Shown here one piece after another: positions 6,327-46,841 of a stretch of 64,000 nucleotides of DNA. Origin of the DNA: a virus; IMG/VR virus record IMGVR_UViG_3300009124_000007, positions 1-64,000 of that record; one strand, given 5' to 3'. Position 1 is the stretch's first letter. Every line of letters starts with the position of its first letter. A program made the translations under genes and the position numbers. The notes under the pieces were generated by a model, which did not search any database, had not been told where the DNA came from, and worked only from the letters and a program-made list of their open reading frames with translations.

Positions 6327-6668
6327 ATGTCTGAATTGGCACAAGATATTGTGGATAAAGTATTTGCTGGTGACAAGACTGGCACGATCGATGCAGTTGG
6401 TGCTGCAATTCAAGATCGAGCATACGACCTAATCCAGCAAAAGAAAGTCGAAGTCGCACAACAGTGGGGTTTCGAGTTGGACCAAACAGGTCAGGCAGCA
6501 GCAGATGAAGTTTCCGCTTCTCTTCCCGATGGGACTGACGAACCACAAGATTATGAAGTTGATGGTCGAATGCCTCATGATCCTCCCGAGGAATATGAGG
6601 AACCAACAGTAGAAACAACCCCAGAAGAAGAGGACACAGAAAATGAAACTGATCTCGGAACAGATTGA
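6327..6668 (+). CDS. Putative prohead core protein (gp67/gp68 position)
   Basis: 113 residues. The first half is helical and mixed-charge (DIVDKVFAGDKTGTIDAVGAA). The last 35 residues are very acidic (PEEEDTENET). It sits between portal and prohead protease, where T4 has the small core proteins gp67 and gp68. I assign the role by position and composition, not by a recognised domain. Its 3' end overlaps the protease gene by 26 bases. Confidence 0.6.
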   Translation: MSELAQDIVDKVFAGDKTGTIDAVGAAIQDRAYDLIQQKKVEVAQQWGFELDQTGQAAADEVSASLPDGTDEPQDYEVDGRMPHDPPEEYEEPTVETTPEEEDTENETDLGTD

Positions 6669-7287
6669 AGAAGTAAAATTTATTGCTGAGGAAACCGAAG
6701 GCAAGAAAAATTACTTTATCGAAGGAATCTTTCTTCAGGGAGAGATCAAAAACCGTAATGGGAGAATGTATCCCATGGCAGTTCTTGATCGCGAAGTTGG
6801 GAAGTACACTGAAGGTTTTATTCAGACTGGACGTGCTCTCGGTGAGTTGGGTCATCCCGATGGTCCTACTCTAAATCTAGATCGCGTTTCCCATAAGATC
6901 ATGTCTCTCCAAAAAGAGGGCACGAACTATGTGGGTCGCGCTAAAATTCTTGGTACACCAATGGGAGAAATTGCCAAGAATCTACTTGACGAGGGAATCA
7001 AACTGGGTGTTTCTTCACGCGGTATGGGTTCACTGGTCAAGAAAGAAGGATATCAAATGGTAGCAGATGATTTCATGCTTGCTACCGCTGCTGATATTGT
7101 AGCAGATCCTTCCGCTCCTGATGCATTTGTTGATGGAATTATGGAAGGAAAGGAATGGGTGTGGGATAACGGCATTTTGAAGGAAGCACAGGTTGCACAA
7201 ATCAAACAAGTTATTGATGAAGCAACTCTAATCAACCTTCAGGAGCGCAAAGTTTCCGCGTTCAAGTCATTTCTACAAAGTTTGTAA
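6643..7287 (+). CDS. gp21: Prohead core protease
   Basis: Serine protease that cuts scaffold, capsid and internal proteins after L-x-E or I-x-E sites during head maturation. 214 residues, matching the family. The catalytic-site segments are visible: GELGHPDGP with the likely catalytic His (about residue 69), and LGVSSRGMGS with the likely catalytic Ser (about residue 126). The start overlaps the previous gene, so translation is probably coupled. It lies directly before the scaffold. Confidence 0.94.
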   Translation: MKLISEQIEEVKFIAEETEGKKNYFIEGIFLQGEIKNRNGRMYPMAVLDREVGKYTEGFIQTGRALGELGHPDGPTLNLDRVSHKIMSLQKEGTNYVGRAKILGTPMGEIAKNLLDEGIKLGVSSRGMGSLVKKEGYQMVADDFMLATAADIVADPSAPDAFVDGIMEGKEWVWDNGILKEAQVAQIKQVIDEATLINLQERKVSAFKSFLQSL

Positions 7288-7297: not shown

Positions 7298-7337
7298 ATC
7301 TATAGAAAAGCAAATGCCGACTAAAGGAGAAACACAA

Positions 7338-8408
7338 ATGTCTACTACTCTCGATAAAGAGTTTGAAGCGCATATGTCTGAGGAGACCGTCTCTGAGGAA
7401 GCAGCTACTGGTTATGCTGCAGTGAAAAAAGGCGCTAAATCTGGTGAAAAGATTGATCGTTCTGGTGCTAAATATGCCGAAATCGGTGGCACTAAGAATG
7501 ATTCCGAGGAAGGTGCTGCAGGCACTAAGAACCTCGGTGCTGCCGCTTCGGGTGCTGTAAGCGTCGAAGGCGACAAAACTCTGAAGACCAAACCATCCGA
7601 TGCATCCAGTGCAATGCCTGGTGCTCTTTCTGGTAAAATCTTTGACGAGGTAGAGACCGATGAAGAAGAGACAATCACTGAAGCCGAGTACGACTTTGCT
7701 GAAGATGTTGACGCTCTTGTCGCTGGTGAAGACCTCTCCGAAGAATTCAAAGATCGCGCAAAAACAATCTTTGAAGCAGCAGTAACTTCTAAAGTAAATG
7801 CAGAAGTTGCAGCACTAAAAGAAGCATTTGAGTCTGAACTTGAACAGCAAGTTGCAGCACTCAAAGAAGAATTGGCCACACAAGTTGACGATTACCTGTC
7901 GTATGCTGCTCAACAATGGATGACCGAGAATGAACTCGCCATTGAGCACGGTATCAAAAACGACATTGCTGAATCGTTCATGTCTGGTCTAAAAGGTTTG
8001 TTCACAGAACATCACATTGGTGTTCCTGAGGACAAGTTCAACATGCTGGAAGGCATGACTGAACAGCTTGATGAGATGGAAGGAAAACTCAACGAGCAAA
8101 TCGACACCAACGTCCAACTCAATAAGCAGTTGGGTTCTTATATGAAAATGGGTATTGTGAGCGAAGTCGCTGCAGGTCTCGCTGAGACTCAAAAGGAGAA
8201 GCTTGCTTCTCTGGCAGAGGGTGTTGAGTTTGAAAGTGAAGAAGATTTTCGTAAGAAAGTCGAAACTATTAGAGAATCCTACTTTACTCGCCGCGAAGCA
8301 GTAACTGCAGATGCGACCGAGGACGCAGAACCTCTGGTAGAAGAAGTCCAGCACACAAATACAGCGATGAGCAGATATGTGGATGCTCTAGCACGCTGGT
8401 CTAACTAA
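7338..8408 (+). CDS. gp22: Prohead scaffolding core protein
   Basis: Internal scaffold on which the capsid assembles; later degraded by gp21. The frame is open from an ATG at 7314, but AAAGGAGA at 7323-7330 sits 8 nt before the ATG at 7338, giving MSTTLDKEFEAHMSEE, so I choose 7338 (356 residues). The protein is very acidic. Residues about 140-280 are strongly helical and heptad-like (ELEQQVAALKEELATQ). It lies between protease and major capsid genes, the T4 order. Confidence 0.93.
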   Translation: MSTTLDKEFEAHMSEETVSEEAATGYAAVKKGAKSGEKIDRSGAKYAEIGGTKNDSEEGAAGTKNLGAAASGAVSVEGDKTLKTKPSDASSAMPGALSGKIFDEVETDEEETITEAEYDFAEDVDALVAGEDLSEEFKDRAKTIFEAAVTSKVNAEVAALKEAFESELEQQVAALKEELATQVDDYLSYAAQQWMTENELAIEHGIKNDIAESFMSGLKGLFTEHHIGVPEDKFNMLEGMTEQLDEMEGKLNEQIDTNVQLNKQLGSYMKMGIVSEVAAGLAETQKEKLASLAEGVEFESEEDFRKKVETIRESYFTRREAVTADATEDAEPLVEEVQHTNTAMSRYVDALARWSN

Positions 8409-8456: not shown

Positions 8457-9854
8457 ATGGCTGATCTCAGACAACTCCAGGAAAAGTGGGCACCCGTTCT
8501 TGACCACGAAGCACTTCCTAAAATTGAAGATGCTCACAAGCGCGGCGTCGTCGCCCAAATCCTGGAAAACCAAGAAAAAGCACTTACAGAAGAGGCACAA
8601 GTTCTCTCTGAGACTGTTCAAACAGTCGGTACAGGCGGTTTCGGTGGCGGTGCCACTGCAACTGGTCCTGTCGCAGGTTTCGACCCCGTTCTGATCTCCC
8701 TGATCAGACGCTCGATGCCCCAACTGATCGCTTACGATATCGCAGGCGTTCAACCCATGACTGGTCCTACTGGACTGATCTTCGCAATGCGTACTGCTTA
8801 TGGCAGCGAGCGCGATGCAACCAACGCCAACTTCCGTGAGGCATTCTTCAACGAGCCTAACGCAGGTTTCTCTGGTGGTCCTGGCACTGGTCTTGCTAAC
8901 TACGATCCTACCGCTTCTGGTAGCGCAGTCAACGATGCTGAAGGCAGCAACCCTGGTCTCCTCAATGACAGCCCTGCTGGCACCTATGAGGTAACTGGCG
9001 ATGCAACTGGCATGAGCACCTCTTCTGCTGAAGCACTGGATGACAGCGCAGCAGGTACTGCTTTCCGCGAAATGGGCTTCTCGATCGAGAAGGTAACCGT
9101 TACCGCTAAGAGCAGAGCACTGAAGGCAGAGTACAGCCTCGAACTGGCTCAAGACCTGAAGGCAGTTCATGGTCTAGATGCAGAGCAGGAACTCAGCAAC
9201 ATCCTTTCGACTGAGATCCTCGCTGAAATCAACCGTGAAGTTGTTCGTACCGTATACAGCAACGCTGTTGCAGGTGCTCAGAACAACACCGCAACTGCTG
9301 GTATCTTCGACCTCGACGTTGACTCCAACGGTCGTTGGTCTGTTGAGAAGTTCAAAGGTCTTCTGTTCCAGATCGAGCGCGATGCTAACGCAATCGGTCA
9401 TGAGACTCGTCGCGGGAAGGGCAACATCATGATCTGCTCTGCAGACGTTGCTAGCGCCCTCTCCATGGCAGGCGTTCTCGACTATGCTCCTGCTCTGAAC
9501 GGCAACAACGGTTTGATCCCTGACGACACCTCCAGCACCCTGGTTGGTACTCTGAACGGTCGCATCAAAGTCTACGTTGACCCCTACTCTGCAAACGTAA
9601 GTGACAAGCACTTCTACGTCATGGGTTATAAGGGTTCCAGCGCATATGACGCAGGTCTCTTCTACTGCCCATACGTTCCTCTGCAGATGGTTCGTGCAAT
9701 CAACCCTAACACCTTCCAGCCCAAGATTGGCTTCAAGACTCGTTACGGTATGGTTTCCAACCCATTCGCACAGGGTCTCACCCAGGGCACTGGTGCTCTC
9801 ACCGCGAACACCAACAAGTACTATCGTCGCGTACAGGTTGCTAACCTCATGTGA
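8457..9854 (+). CDS. gp23: Major capsid protein
   Basis: Builds the hexamers of the head shell. 465 residues. The N-terminal propeptide (LRQLQEKWAPVLDHEALP) ends at a probable gp21 site, L50-S51-E52. The following N-arm, residues 56-79, runs from TVGTGGF to AGFDPVL and is nearly duplicated in the protein at 45927. The shell core includes MRTAYGSERDATNANFREAFF and ends with a SNPFAQG-type segment. Codon use looks GC-richer than in neighbouring genes, as expected for the most highly expressed protein. A strong terminator follows. Confidence 0.98.
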   Translation: MADLRQLQEKWAPVLDHEALPKIEDAHKRGVVAQILENQEKALTEEAQVLSETVQTVGTGGFGGGATATGPVAGFDPVLISLIRRSMPQLIAYDIAGVQPMTGPTGLIFAMRTAYGSERDATNANFREAFFNEPNAGFSGGPGTGLANYDPTASGSAVNDAEGSNPGLLNDSPAGTYEVTGDATGMSTSSAEALDDSAAGTAFREMGFSIEKVTVTAKSRALKAEYSLELAQDLKAVHGLDAEQELSNILSTEILAEINREVVRTVYSNAVAGAQNNTATAGIFDLDVDSNGRWSVEKFKGLLFQIERDANAIGHETRRGKGNIMICSADVASALSMAGVLDYAPALNGNNGLIPDDTSSTLVGTLNGRIKVYVDPYSANVSDKHFYVMGYKGSSAYDAGLFYCPYVPLQMVRAINPNTFQPKIGFKTRYGMVSNPFAQGLTQGTGALTANTNKYYRRVQVANLM

Positions 9855-39324: not shown

Positions 39325-40299
39325 ATGCCTGCTAATACTCATCTGGAACACCCCGAAGACATGGTTTTCCACGGGGAGTATATAAGTCTGCTCAACTTTT
39401 TCTACAATCTGCCGTCCAATCAGCGTGTATCAGTCAAGTGGGACGGTGCCCCTGCTTTGGTATGGGGTATATGCCCTTCCTCGGGTCGCTTCTTTGTAGG
39501 AACTAAGTCGGTTTTCAATAAGCGCAAGATCAAGATCAACTATAATCACCATGATATTGATATGAATCATGGTGACAATCCTGCTGTAGCATCTATTCTT
39601 CACGTTGCATTTGAGTGTCTTCCTGTTCCTGGCAACGGAGGTTATCTGCAGGGAGACTTCATTGGTTTTGGCGATACCAATACTTTCAAACCCAATACCA
39701 TTGAGTATCGGTTTGACAATACTATCAAGCAATCTATAGTTGTTGCTCTCCATACTCGTTATGAGGGTGCTTTTATCGAACCTCGCGTTCAGTTTGGTAT
39801 TAGTACCAACGATGTTATTTGGTCAGATCGTCGTCAAGATCGCTGCTATCTGATTGACACTGCCCATGCATCTGTGGAATACAAGTCTGTCTTCGGTAAG
39901 ATGTATCGCACTCAACTTGCAAAGTTTTTTGCTCACCGTGCTAAGTTTCCTGCTGCTCGTGCAACCACTCAGTACCTGAAAACTCACGTCAATAAATACA
40001 TCCGCCATGGCATCATGCCCACTGCTACTGAGATGTACGATTCGTTACCTGATAAATATAAGAGTCAAGTGAACGTTGATTTGTTTCGCCTCTTTGAGGT
40101 TATCTATAATCTGAAAAACAAAGTGATGAAACATATCGTTGTTTATAACCAAGCAGAATGTTACATTGATGGTCAACCCACTGATCATGAAGGTTTCGTG
40201 ATTACCAGTTCTGGTCAAACCTATAAAATGGTGAACAGGTTGGAATTTAGCAAAGCGAACTTTACCCTAGATAAAAATTGGACGAATGAAAAAGTTTAG
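39325..40299 (+). CDS. Ligase-like nucleotidyltransferase candidate
   Basis: 324 residues. VSVKWDGAPALVWG has the K-x-D-G motif I of DNA/RNA ligases and capping enzymes (Lys would carry the nucleotide). Near the end, HEGFVITSSG fits motif IV (E-G-x-V-I) and TYKMVNR fits a motif V Lys. FECLP...GDFIGFG may hold motif III. Similar cyanophage proteins are usually annotated as unknown (I believe DUF6267). Activity is inferred from these motifs only. It overlaps the nucleotidyltransferase gene at 40286 by 14 bases. Confidence 0.75.
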   Translation: MPANTHLEHPEDMVFHGEYISLLNFFYNLPSNQRVSVKWDGAPALVWGICPSSGRFFVGTKSVFNKRKIKINYNHHDIDMNHGDNPAVASILHVAFECLPVPGNGGYLQGDFIGFGDTNTFKPNTIEYRFDNTIKQSIVVALHTRYEGAFIEPRVQFGISTNDVIWSDRRQDRCYLIDTAHASVEYKSVFGKMYRTQLAKFFAHRAKFPAARATTQYLKTHVNKYIRHGIMPTATEMYDSLPDKYKSQVNVDLFRLFEVIYNLKNKVMKHIVVYNQAECYIDGQPTDHEGFVITSSGQTYKMVNRLEFSKANFTLDKNWTNEKV

Positions 40300-41458
40300 C
40301 ACCTTCCTTAGCGAGGCGGCAAAATCCACAGCAGGACAGCAAGCAGAGAAACTAGGACTTACCCATGCTGGGTATGGTCGCTGGATGAACAAACGTGGCG
40401 AGGTGACACACATCTCAAAGCAGGGCAAACTGATTCCTATAGCACAACAACCCGAAGTAGCACCAGATGGAGGAGAGGCACCAGCACCCGAAGCGCAACA
40501 ACCCGCTGCGCCAGAAGCACCTGGAGAGGTATCTAAAGGTCCGATTACTATTACTTTTGGAAGATTCAATCCTCCTACTACAGGGCATGAAAAACTCATT
40601 CAGCAGGTAGCATCACAAGCAGGTGATGGTGACTATCGAATCTACCCATCACGCTCCCAGGATCCTAAGAAGAATCCTCTGGATCCAGAAACTAAGGTGC
40701 ATTACATGCGCTTGGCATATCCAGATCATGCTCATGCTATCCACAATGATGATAATATGAAGAGCATCTTTGATGTTCTTGAGGGACTATATGGTGAGGG
40801 GTATAGTGATGTCAATATTGTAGTTGGTGGCGATCGAGTAAAAGAGTTTGATGCTCTCGCTAACAAGTACAACGGCAAACTTTATAACTTTACCAGCATC
40901 AATGTGAAGTCTGCTGGTGATCGTGACCCAGATGCTGATGATGTATCTGGCATGTCTGCATCTAAACTTCGTGCTCATGCAGCAGAGAATGACTACGAAT
41001 CTTTTTCTTCTGGTTTGTCTAAGAACCTAGAGGATAAGCACAAGAAAGAACTGTTTGCACATTTGCGTGGTAATATGAAGATGGAGGAGGCAGAAGATTT
41101 TGCTGAAGCATCTTTTGTTCTTCATGAAGTTGCTCCCAAACTAGATCCTACAAGTTTACGTGAAGCATATTACAACAAAGAAATTTTCAAAGTCGGACAG
41201 ATTGTTGAGAATTTGAACACTGGTGTGATCGGTAAGGTTGTATCACGCGGTGTAAATTACGTTATATACATAGATGAGCATGAGGAAATTTATCGCGGTT
41301 GGTTGAAGGATCTCGTGGAGAGAAACGACATCAAACGCTTTGATTTTACTCCGCTTGGTAAGATTGGTACAGATGAACTAGCACATAAAGTTGCTGCTAT
41401 GACACCTGGACAATTTATTCAGAAGATAAATAAAAGAAACAAAACTGCTGAACGATGA
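40286..41458 (+). CDS. Cytidylyltransferase-like protein with capsid-targeting-like N-terminus
   Basis: 390 residues. The N-terminus MKKFSTFLSEA strongly resembles the T4 capsid-targeting sequence of internal proteins (MKTYQEFIAE) and ends in L-S-E, a gp21 cleavage pattern also found in this phage's gp23. From about residue 90, TITFGRFNPPTTGHEKLI is the nucleotidyltransferase HxGH-type motif (T-x-G-H), and SGMSASKLRAHA is the second (S-x-x-x-x-R-like) motif. The C-terminal part is a separate domain. Predicted: an enzyme packaged in the head. ATGA-type overlap with the next gene. Confidence 0.82.
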   Translation: MKKFSTFLSEAAKSTAGQQAEKLGLTHAGYGRWMNKRGEVTHISKQGKLIPIAQQPEVAPDGGEAPAPEAQQPAAPEAPGEVSKGPITITFGRFNPPTTGHEKLIQQVASQAGDGDYRIYPSRSQDPKKNPLDPETKVHYMRLAYPDHAHAIHNDDNMKSIFDVLEGLYGEGYSDVNIVVGGDRVKEFDALANKYNGKLYNFTSINVKSAGDRDPDADDVSGMSASKLRAHAAENDYESFSSGLSKNLEDKHKKELFAHLRGNMKMEEAEDFAEASFVLHEVAPKLDPTSLREAYYNKEIFKVGQIVENLNTGVIGKVVSRGVNYVIYIDEHEEIYRGWLKDLVERNDIKRFDFTPLGKIGTDELAHKVAAMTPGQFIQKINKRNKTAER

Positions 41459-44976: not shown

Positions 44977-45561
44977 ATGTCTTTATACGGAAGAGTTGAC
45001 TCTGTTGCCAACCAGACCGCTGTTGGTCTTACTAGAGGTAATGGCGCAGGGTCTGCAACAGAAACAATTGTTTTCGTTGACGAAACGGAAGCAGGTCTTG
45101 CAGCAAACAAAGAGCGTGGCATCACTGCTCCTGGTTGGTGGGCATATCGTACCTACACTGATGCAGCAGGTAGCACCCGTCATAAAGCAGAGCACCTGAT
45201 GGTTCTCACTAATCCTGAGGCAAACGCACAAGAGACTCTCGCTGACGACACCATCGCAGCAGACGTTCAAGCACTCATCACCATCTCTGCACAACCTACC
45301 GATCAGACCACCGTCAGCGGCGCAGCAACCTTCAGCGTTACTGCTGCTTGTGATAACAGTGGCACGGTTACCTTCCAGTGGCAGAAGAAGACAGCAGGTA
45401 GCACCCGCTATGTCAACGTCTCTGGTGCAACCTCTGCATCTCTGGCACTCACAGGTCAAACCGCATCCGAAACTGGTGACAAGTATCGCGTCAAGTTGAA
45501 TGCTAACGTTGGTGCTCCTGAGGTTATCTCTGATGCTGTAACACTAACATTTGGCACCTGA
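44977..45561 (+). CDS. Virion structural protein with Ig-like domain
   Basis: 194 residues. The first 80 residues (SLYGRVDSVANQTAVG, GITAPGWWAYRTYTDAAG) read like a cyanophage head or neck decoration protein. From about residue 100, ITISAQPTDQTTVSGAATFSV, then TVTFQWQKK and GDKYRVKLNAN, form an Ig-like beta sandwich such as those on phage surfaces. Codon use is GC-rich, like gp23, suggesting high expression. Late box upstream. Confidence 0.78.
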   Translation: MSLYGRVDSVANQTAVGLTRGNGAGSATETIVFVDETEAGLAANKERGITAPGWWAYRTYTDAAGSTRHKAEHLMVLTNPEANAQETLADDTIAADVQALITISAQPTDQTTVSGAATFSVTAACDNSGTVTFQWQKKTAGSTRYVNVSGATSASLALTGQTASETGDKYRVKLNANVGAPEVISDAVTLTFGT

Positions 45562-45567
45562 TAATAT

Positions 45568-45930
45568 ATGAACTTCAGCGAACTGAATGCTAATAACTAC
45601 ATTCTGTTCGCCATCAAACATTATGAAAATCCTCAGAGCGTAACGCGAGAGGATTTTGATGAAGACATGAAACGCTTCAAGTATCTCAAGAGATTGTTCA
45701 AGAGATACTTGAAGTCTCATGATTTGAGAACTCATCTCATCATCAATCATATTATTATTTTGTATAATGTTTTTGGCGAAGCAGCAACACCGTTACTCTT
45801 TTTCAAACTGGAAAGGGAGTATTGGCCTTTGCTAAAAACCTTTCTATTATTTTTGAATAAATATCCTGTAGGCATGTTGCCAGGATTAGATATCGAAGAA
45901 GAAATTCAAGAGGAGCTTGATAAACTATGA
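45568..45930 (+). CDS. Conserved cyanophage protein
   Basis: 120 residues, helical, rich in Leu/Phe/Tyr (FKYLKRLFKRYLKSHDLRTH and WPLLKTFLLFLNKYPVGMLPG). Acidic end. Stop overlaps the next start (ATGATGA). No function recognised. Confidence 0.72.
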   Translation: MNFSELNANNYILFAIKHYENPQSVTREDFDEDMKRFKYLKRLFKRYLKSHDLRTHLIINHIIILYNVFGEAATPLLFFKLEREYWPLLKTFLLFLNKYPVGMLPGLDIEEEIQEELDKL

Positions 45931-46841
45931 TGACCGTAGGTACTGGTGGTTTTAGTGGTTCCGCTGCAGCAACTGGACCTGTAGCAGGGTTCGATCCTGT
46001 CTTGGATTTTCGTAAGAGAATGGCAAACAAGATCAAAGATCATCCTTATGCCCAGCAGTATAAGGAGAAGCGTAAGAAAGCAAAAAAACTGAAAGAGGCA
46101 ATGGATCGCCATGCCCATCAGGTTGCTCATCTCTACCAGTACAAAGTAAACATCCCTGAAGTGGGTGAAACTATTATCTTCGCATCTTCGCAAGCAGAAC
46201 TAACAATGAAGATGCGTCTTCTTATCAACCCACGCTATCGTGGTGATGTAAAGATTGATAGAATCTTCCCTTCTGATGCTGGAAAGTTTTATAACGAAAA
46301 GAGAATGAAAGCATATAAAAATCTCCCTGAGCAGATGGAAGATCCTGCAGACAAAGCAGCAGCTGCTTCGGCAAAGAAAGAGCAAGATGCTGCTAAGAAG
46401 GCAAATGATGCTGCTAAGAAACAAGCAGCAGCACTGAAGAAGCAACAGTCGCAGAAAGAAATTGCCACCAAGATTGCTGCAGAGAAGAAAAAAATTCAAC
46501 TGAAGACTGCAGAGATGCAGAAAACACTGCAAACTAAGATTGCAGGCATGAAAAAAGCAGCAGCATCTGGCGCATCTACTGGTGGTGTTGCCGAAGAGTT
46601 CATGCATGAATCTTCAGGTGGTAACATCGATGCAATCAAAAAGATTGCTGATAGCAATCAACCAGGTAAGATTACATTCTTGAATGGCGAGAGTTTCCAA
46701 CTCCAACCAGCAATTGCACAGAAAATTTTCCAAGCATACGAGACACTAGGTATGCAAAGGAACAAAGCGAAGTTTAGTAATGCTGCAAATGAGAATACAC
46801 AATCATTCCAAAAGATCTTAGATTTTGTGGGGCAGTCATAA
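45927..46841 (+). CDS. Virion protein candidate beginning with a copy of the gp23 N-arm
   Basis: 304 residues. Residues 3-26 (from TVGTGGF to AGFDPVL) match residues 56-79 of this phage's gp23 at about 21 of 24 positions, yet the DNA uses different codons at many of them, so the match is kept at the protein level. The rest differs: basic DFRKRMANKIKDHPYAQQY, an Ala/Lys-rich coiled coil (about 135-215) and a helical C-terminus. The motif may bind the same partner that the capsid N-arm binds inside the head. Two adjacent ATGs (45927 and 45930); TAATG with the next gene. Confidence 0.78.
   Translation: MMTVGTGGFSGSAAATGPVAGFDPVLDFRKRMANKIKDHPYAQQYKEKRKKAKKLKEAMDRHAHQVAHLYQYKVNIPEVGETIIFASSQAELTMKMRLLINPRYRGDVKIDRIFPSDAGKFYNEKRMKAYKNLPEQMEDPADKAAAASAKKEQDAAKKANDAAKKQAAALKKQQSQKEIATKIAAEKKKIQLKTAEMQKTLQTKIAGMKKAAASGASTGGVAEEFMHESSGGNIDAIKKIADSNQPGKITFLNGESFQLQPAIAQKIFQAYETLGMQRNKAKFSNAANENTQSFQKILDFVGQS

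Follow-up and report, generated by a model that had tools for sequence, protein, structure and literature searches.

The closest described counterpart of the peptide reported here is the N-fist of T4 gp23, which comprises residues 66-91 at the mature N-terminus and makes contact with four subunits, of which two belong to the next capsomer (PMC9958956, PMC7136217). It has no ordered structure in the prohead, and expansion carries it onto the outer surface. Around the portal vertex, the five distal subunits also have it disordered, since it there faces the portal and not a capsomer (PMC9958956, PMC7136217). T4 additionally has the small basic head proteins IPI, IPII and IPIII, which bear a capsid-targeting sequence. 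Targeting by this sequence depends mainly on residues 4 and 7 and processing on residues 8 and 10, with an Asp at residue 10 inhibiting the latter (PMC9026906). The parts of the T4 sources covered here describe no copy of the gp23 N-arm on these proteins. The cyanophage gp23 presented here likewise carries approximately 25 residues at its mature N-terminus directly after the predicted gp21 cut; however, a like segment is also found on separate proteins, and it is equated with the N-fist by its position after the cut and not by sequence. A literature search (titles and abstract beginnings, among the matches listed) gave no report of a gp23-arm tag shared with a second protein.

The gp23 arm and the N-terminus of P

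The window analyzed is a stretch of 64,000 nucleotides (positions 1 to 64,000 of IMG/VR record IMGVR_UViG_3300009124_000007). The features compared first are the following:

6643..7287, forward strand, gp21 prohead protease (Pfam Peptidase_S77, E-value = 4.8e-33)
7314..8408, forward strand, gp22 scaffold (Pfam T4_CASP, E-value = 4.1e-82)
8457..9854, forward strand, gp23 major capsid protein precursor (465 aa; Pfam Gp23, E-value = 1.3e-148)
8604..8612, forward strand, L50-S-E52, predicted gp21 cut that would free the gp23 N-arm, directly before the matching segment
8622..8693, forward strand, gp23 residues 56-79, the segment matching the P tag
45927..46841, forward strand, P, an open frame of 304 aa (phrog_696 = T4-GC 426, orthologue of Syn9 gp190), probably a minor head protein with a gp23-like N-terminus
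45933..46004, forward strand, the tag (P residues 3-26), sharing 21 of 24 positions with gp23 residues 56-79

The original prediction held that the start of mature gp23 is copied at the start of P and that the likeness is kept at the protein level, and both statements were confirmed. The next best 24-residue stretch to the gp23 segment in the six frames of the window, an unrelated one, reaches 10/24, while 14 of the 21 identical residues of the tag lie in different codons, with a DNA identity of 52/72. By analogy with the T4 system, gp21 would cut gp23 at L50-S-E52, and the segment is thus placed at the start of the mature protein, as had been proposed. An L-x-E precedes the arm in all 80 gp23 arms taken from IMG/VR. 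Pfam sets the start of the gp23 capsid domain at residue 72; the tag copy starts at the predicted gp21 cut and stops where the capsid domain starts. Searching the 76,966-base record that contains the window with a tag profile gave two clear matches, gp23 and P, and a weak third (E-value = 0.086) lying antisense within P.

Behind the tag, P is composed of the following parts:

46005..46094, forward strand, variable basic linker (residues 27-56; majority fraction 0.41 and 28% gaps in 37 sequences)
46089..46097, forward strand, possible gp21 site L55-K-E57 (E57 invariant in 37/37 aligned sequences)
46125..46319, forward strand, conserved alpha/beta domain with the motif QYKVxIPEVGET (residues 67-131; from conservation and the AF2 model)
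46344..46565, forward strand, long helix, likely a coiled coil (residues 140-213; AF2 model)
46617..46829, forward strand, C-terminal alpha/beta region (residues 231-301), found in a subset of P proteins

Few parts of P are conserved as well as the tag, which is on par with the main domain and far above the linker, the mean majority-residue fraction in 37 sequences being 0.85 for residues 3-26, 0.41 for residues 27-56 and 0.80 for residues 67-131. The AF2 model from the same number of sequences (mean pLDDT 74, pTM 0.28) places the alpha/beta domain at 67-131 and the long helix at 140-213, in agreement with the coiled coil expected from the first inspection, with another small region at the C-terminal end; residues 1-20 have a pLDDT of 39-46, and the tag has no confident structure. 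A PDB fold search with this model yielded no match at E <= 0.001, and its search against 987 chains was set aside as uninformative, the best row being a helix match with Z 6.0. BFVD gave seven matches at E <= 0.001, of which the named ones are uncharacterized phage proteins. Concerning processing, the window's P starts directly with the tag, with neither an N-terminal capsid-targeting leader nor an E ahead of it. Between tag and domain, a strict [LI]xE[ASGNTM] occurs in nine of 43 distinct P relatives; the residue two before E57 does not keep a hydrophobic character across the 37 aligned sequences, so a second gp21 site at E57 is a possibility.

P is a full-length member of phrog_696 (residues 1-302, E-value = 1.9e-98) and lies between DUF7207 and gp61, an order repeated in 22 fetched cyanophage records. 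Both PHROGs and the RefSeq records of cyanophages name this family 'major head protein'. Since the phrog_696 profile meets the window's gp23 at residues 52-79 only, and P gives no match to the Pfam Gp23 capsid domain up to E 1, the label appears to derive from the shared tag; the name was probably borrowed from gp23 and is a probable annotation error.

Distribution of P and the relation of its tag to gp23

Tblastn with P retrieved 283 of 50,697 phage records, all of them named cyanophages or phages of Synechococcus or Prochlorococcus. For the tag searches, 22 diverse P-encoding records were fetched. With the window's gp23 as the sole query, the P tag was the second match at E <= 0.001 in 17 of these 22 genomes. 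The profile, which was partly built from the same genomes, found both gp23 and P in 21 of them (E-value < 1e-10). Absence of the match from other cyanophages with both genes, which would have refuted the original prediction, is therefore not what is seen. The exception is S-H38, where the profile finds gp23 only and P retains just the first tag residues, APTNSVG. No third tagged place was found by the profile below E 0.006 in the 22 genomes, the further matches above that value being short or antisense. From IMG/VR, 302 relatives of P were obtained and 80 kept, and the tag is present in all 80; in 17 of them a MINE start stands ahead of it, which reads as an I-x-E site. The GPxAG[FY]DP stretch is conserved, its spacing included. 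The likeness between P and gp23 is thus real, widespread, conserved at the protein level and not unique to this phage.

Two irregular forms of P were also seen. In P-RSM1 (L006, around 1477-2000), tag and body are in different frames and no P gene is annotated. A P relative at 2303-2884 of L129 has approximately 65 extra N-terminal residues, rich in Ala, Gly and Lys, and its tag is therefore internal.

Own pairs of gp23 arm and P tag outscored permuted pairs (p = 5e-5). A simple Mantel test on 22 of the 23 cluster-B pairs gave r = 0.20 (p = 0.08), and the partial test on the same pairs, in which gp23 body and P domain were controlled for, gave r = -0.08 (p = 0.74); P-RSM1, whose tag and P body are in different frames, was dropped for that reason. 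Strict covariation within genomes was accordingly rejected, the own pairs being better than permuted ones yet holding nothing beyond phylogeny, and coevolution of the P tag with the gp23 arm is not claimed. Additionally, the gp23 arm is shortened while the P tag is still long in nine of 23 genomes (ACG-2014a, metaG-MbCM1, P-RSM1, S-CAM22, ACG-2014b, S-SM1, Syn30, S-CAM8 and S-RIM2). Given these shortened arms and the lack of a link beyond phylogeny, the P tag does not have to be an exact copy of the gp23 arm in the same genome. Strict mimicry of the own arm is weakened by these results, which are still compatible with a shared site.

The same cluster-B result, together with the near loss of the tag in S-H38, is what would be expected if the tag were a functionless relic of a partial gp23 duplication or recombination. 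We regard this explanation as very improbable, because between the window and S-ShM2 the P tag differs in three of 26 residues, with ten further codons silently changed, while the linker differs in 17 of 39 residues with eight silent changes, and because similar peptides occur in distant phages and in a second protein family, both described below.

The gene slot after DUF7207 and a second carrier family

The gene upstream of P anchors a slot that is found well beyond the P-encoding phages:

45568..45930, forward strand, DUF7207 gene (phrog_407), overlapping the start of P by 4 bases

DUF7207 was found in 485 phage records, and the gene after it was read in 80 further IMG/VR loci. Starts were picked mechanically as the first ATG near the end of DUF7207. 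Among the products of the 80 loci, 76 were distinct; L352, a wrong gene, was excluded by its length, leaving 75 of 46-115 residues for testing. Most slot proteins are small, with a gp23-arm-like peptide between a helical leader and a basic tail. Compared with 40 of 95 distinct gp23 arms, 51 of the 75 score above the 99th percentile of shuffles. Most of the 24 below this threshold have a shortened version, such as GxIAGTxEAGDDPPV, that is weakly gp23-like. Among 601 ORF starts taken from these loci as controls, three exceed the threshold, and two of these are tagged proteins that the slot rule had missed. These figures bear on the view that the tag is a common flexible linker resembling gp23 by composition only. 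Its richness in Gly and Ala and its low model confidence would fit such a linker. However, composition-preserving shuffles, which contradict this view, and control ORFs seldom reach the observed scores, and the GPxAG[FY]DP stretch is conserved with its spacing, which makes a mere likeness of composition extremely improbable.

Slot protein and gp23 arm of the same genome are alike (shuffle p <= 0.01) in 36 of 38 genomes, 23 of the 38 belonging to cluster B; the two that are not significant are G007 and G009. The test used the first 60 residues of the slot protein or a shorter stretch. For Sinorhizobium phage phiM7, which is not a cyanophage, TNTGNI occurs both in the gp23 arm and near the C-terminus of the slot protein; the C-terminal 51 residues were used here and were chosen after the match had been seen by eye, so that this p value is not a prior one. 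Run on 22 further records, many of them fragments, the tag profile gave one match in 20, two in G018 and none in S-SKS1. Tag profiles miss the slot proteins of G006, G007, G009 and S-SKS1, although the slot is present in them. For S-CREM2, no slot protein was recognized from its description (PMC10665884). On sequence grounds, the gp23-arm-like tag belongs to the slot after DUF7207, also in phages without P.

A second carrier was met in S-SM2, where the profile matches gp23 and T4-GC 1207 but misses the slot protein. T4-GC 1207 of this phage (142 aa) has a leader ending in LKE, then a near copy of the phage's own gp23 arm, and then a body of its own. Its alignment with P covers the tag alone (E-value = 0.007), a second stretch of 11 residues having an E-value of 0.68, and it has no PHROG match up to E 1. 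Among 113 gp23 arms, that of S-SM2 itself ties for the best match to this tag. In S-SKS1 the slot itself is occupied by a T4-GC 1207 relative (E-value = 7e-27), while in L322 such a relative lies approximately 1.4 kb upstream of DUF7207. As judged from these alignments, the tag is also borne by a second protein family that is alike to P in the tag only. Proteins of the T4-GC 1207 type with a gp23-arm tag lie at 1377-1805 of L167 and 98-448 of L322. The C-terminal 30-40 residues of the S-SM2 protein are common to other cyanophage proteins.

Leaders, virion proteins and a proposed head role

Like IPI, IPII and IPIII of T4, the slot proteins are small and basic, and some slot relatives start with roughly ten leader residues, the last of them E; the window's P has no such leader. 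An [LI]xE lies within the first 45 aa of 60 of the 75 slot proteins, as opposed to 28% of shuffles. A stricter pattern, modelled on the T4 targeting sequence and on the positions given for it (PMC9026906), fits four of the 80 slot loci, one of which ends in D. These sites, and the L-x-E ahead of the tag in every one of the 80 gp23 arms, would agree with the tag being a signal for prohead entry or a gp21 substrate, in which the core or the protease handles gp23 and the slot proteins and nothing binds an N-fist site. We consider this possible but unlikely. The sole protein of the window, on both strands, that fits the leader pattern is the cytidyltransferase-like T4-GC 190 (40286-41458), whose leader ends in LSE and in which neither the window comparison nor the tag profile detects a tag; leader and tag are therefore separable. 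Moreover, no third tagged place came up in the 22 P genomes, and some 25 shared residues past the cut would exceed what a protease site needs.

The presence of P in virions is indirectly supported by record notes. In a 50-kb stretch of the S-ShM2 record, eight of 79 features carry the note 'similar to Synechococcus phage S-SM1 protein', namely gp18, gp19, gp20, gp21, gp23, gp3, T4-GC 190 and the P orthologue. No such note is found on gp22 or on the replication genes. S-SM1 virions have been reported to contain 41 proteins, including gp21 and a member of the T4-GC 190 family (PMC3037559). As the note marks the P orthologue in the same manner as known virion proteins, P may well have been seen in S-SM1 virions. 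The QB2 record, in turn, describes the P orthologue as a T4-like structural protein. Another head protein of the window (phrog_613), a neighbour at 44977-45561, has a weak Hoc-like match to phrog_4069 over residues 99-186 (E-value = 0.00044).

The record notes of S-ShM2 and QB2 suggest that P stays in the virion, and so speak against an assembly regulator that does not reside in the shell, a slot protein binding the scaffold gp22 or the portal through a sequence that gp23 shows inside the prohead. In its favor, the N-terminal region of T4 gp23* lies inside and is disordered before expansion (PMC9958956). On balance, we judge such a regulator distinctly unlikely.

The reading that we prefer, and to which we give an even chance, is that P serves as a minor head protein and attaches to the gp23 lattice by mimicking the N-fist. 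The copy of the gp23 free end on the P gene in many T4-like marine phages suggests that the product plugs into the head like a shell subunit, and from the same position after the cut and the like length of the tag, the simplest reading is that slot proteins sit in gp23 N-fist sites. In this proposal, slot proteins, P included, would enter the prohead, some of them by a T4-like leader with an [LI]xE site at its end. The protease gp21 would cleave off this leader and the gp23 prodomain in one and the same step; the P of cluster B would have lost most or all of its leader. The exposed arm might then bind the gp23 lattice where the N-fist of a neighboring capsomer normally sits, and would fix to the shell the basic tail of the small slot proteins or, in P, the alpha/beta and coiled-coil body. 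Natural docking places would be sites without a gp23 N-fist, for instance next to the portal. A more general version, which we hold to be doubtful, is that in cyanobacterial and rhizobial T4-like phages small N-fist mimics enter the prohead, are freed with gp23 by the same protease in the same step and fill the empty N-fist sites at the portal and pentameric vertices, their basic tails tying the shell to the DNA.

The work thus offers a testable head role for the P gene, whose relatives occur in 283 phage records and whose slot neighbor occurs in 485. As a reasoned proposal concerning function, P would belong to the T4-type minor head proteins and would have taken over the free end of the major capsid protein. 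If this is true, a phage places other proteins in the shell by giving them a copy of its shell protein's free end.
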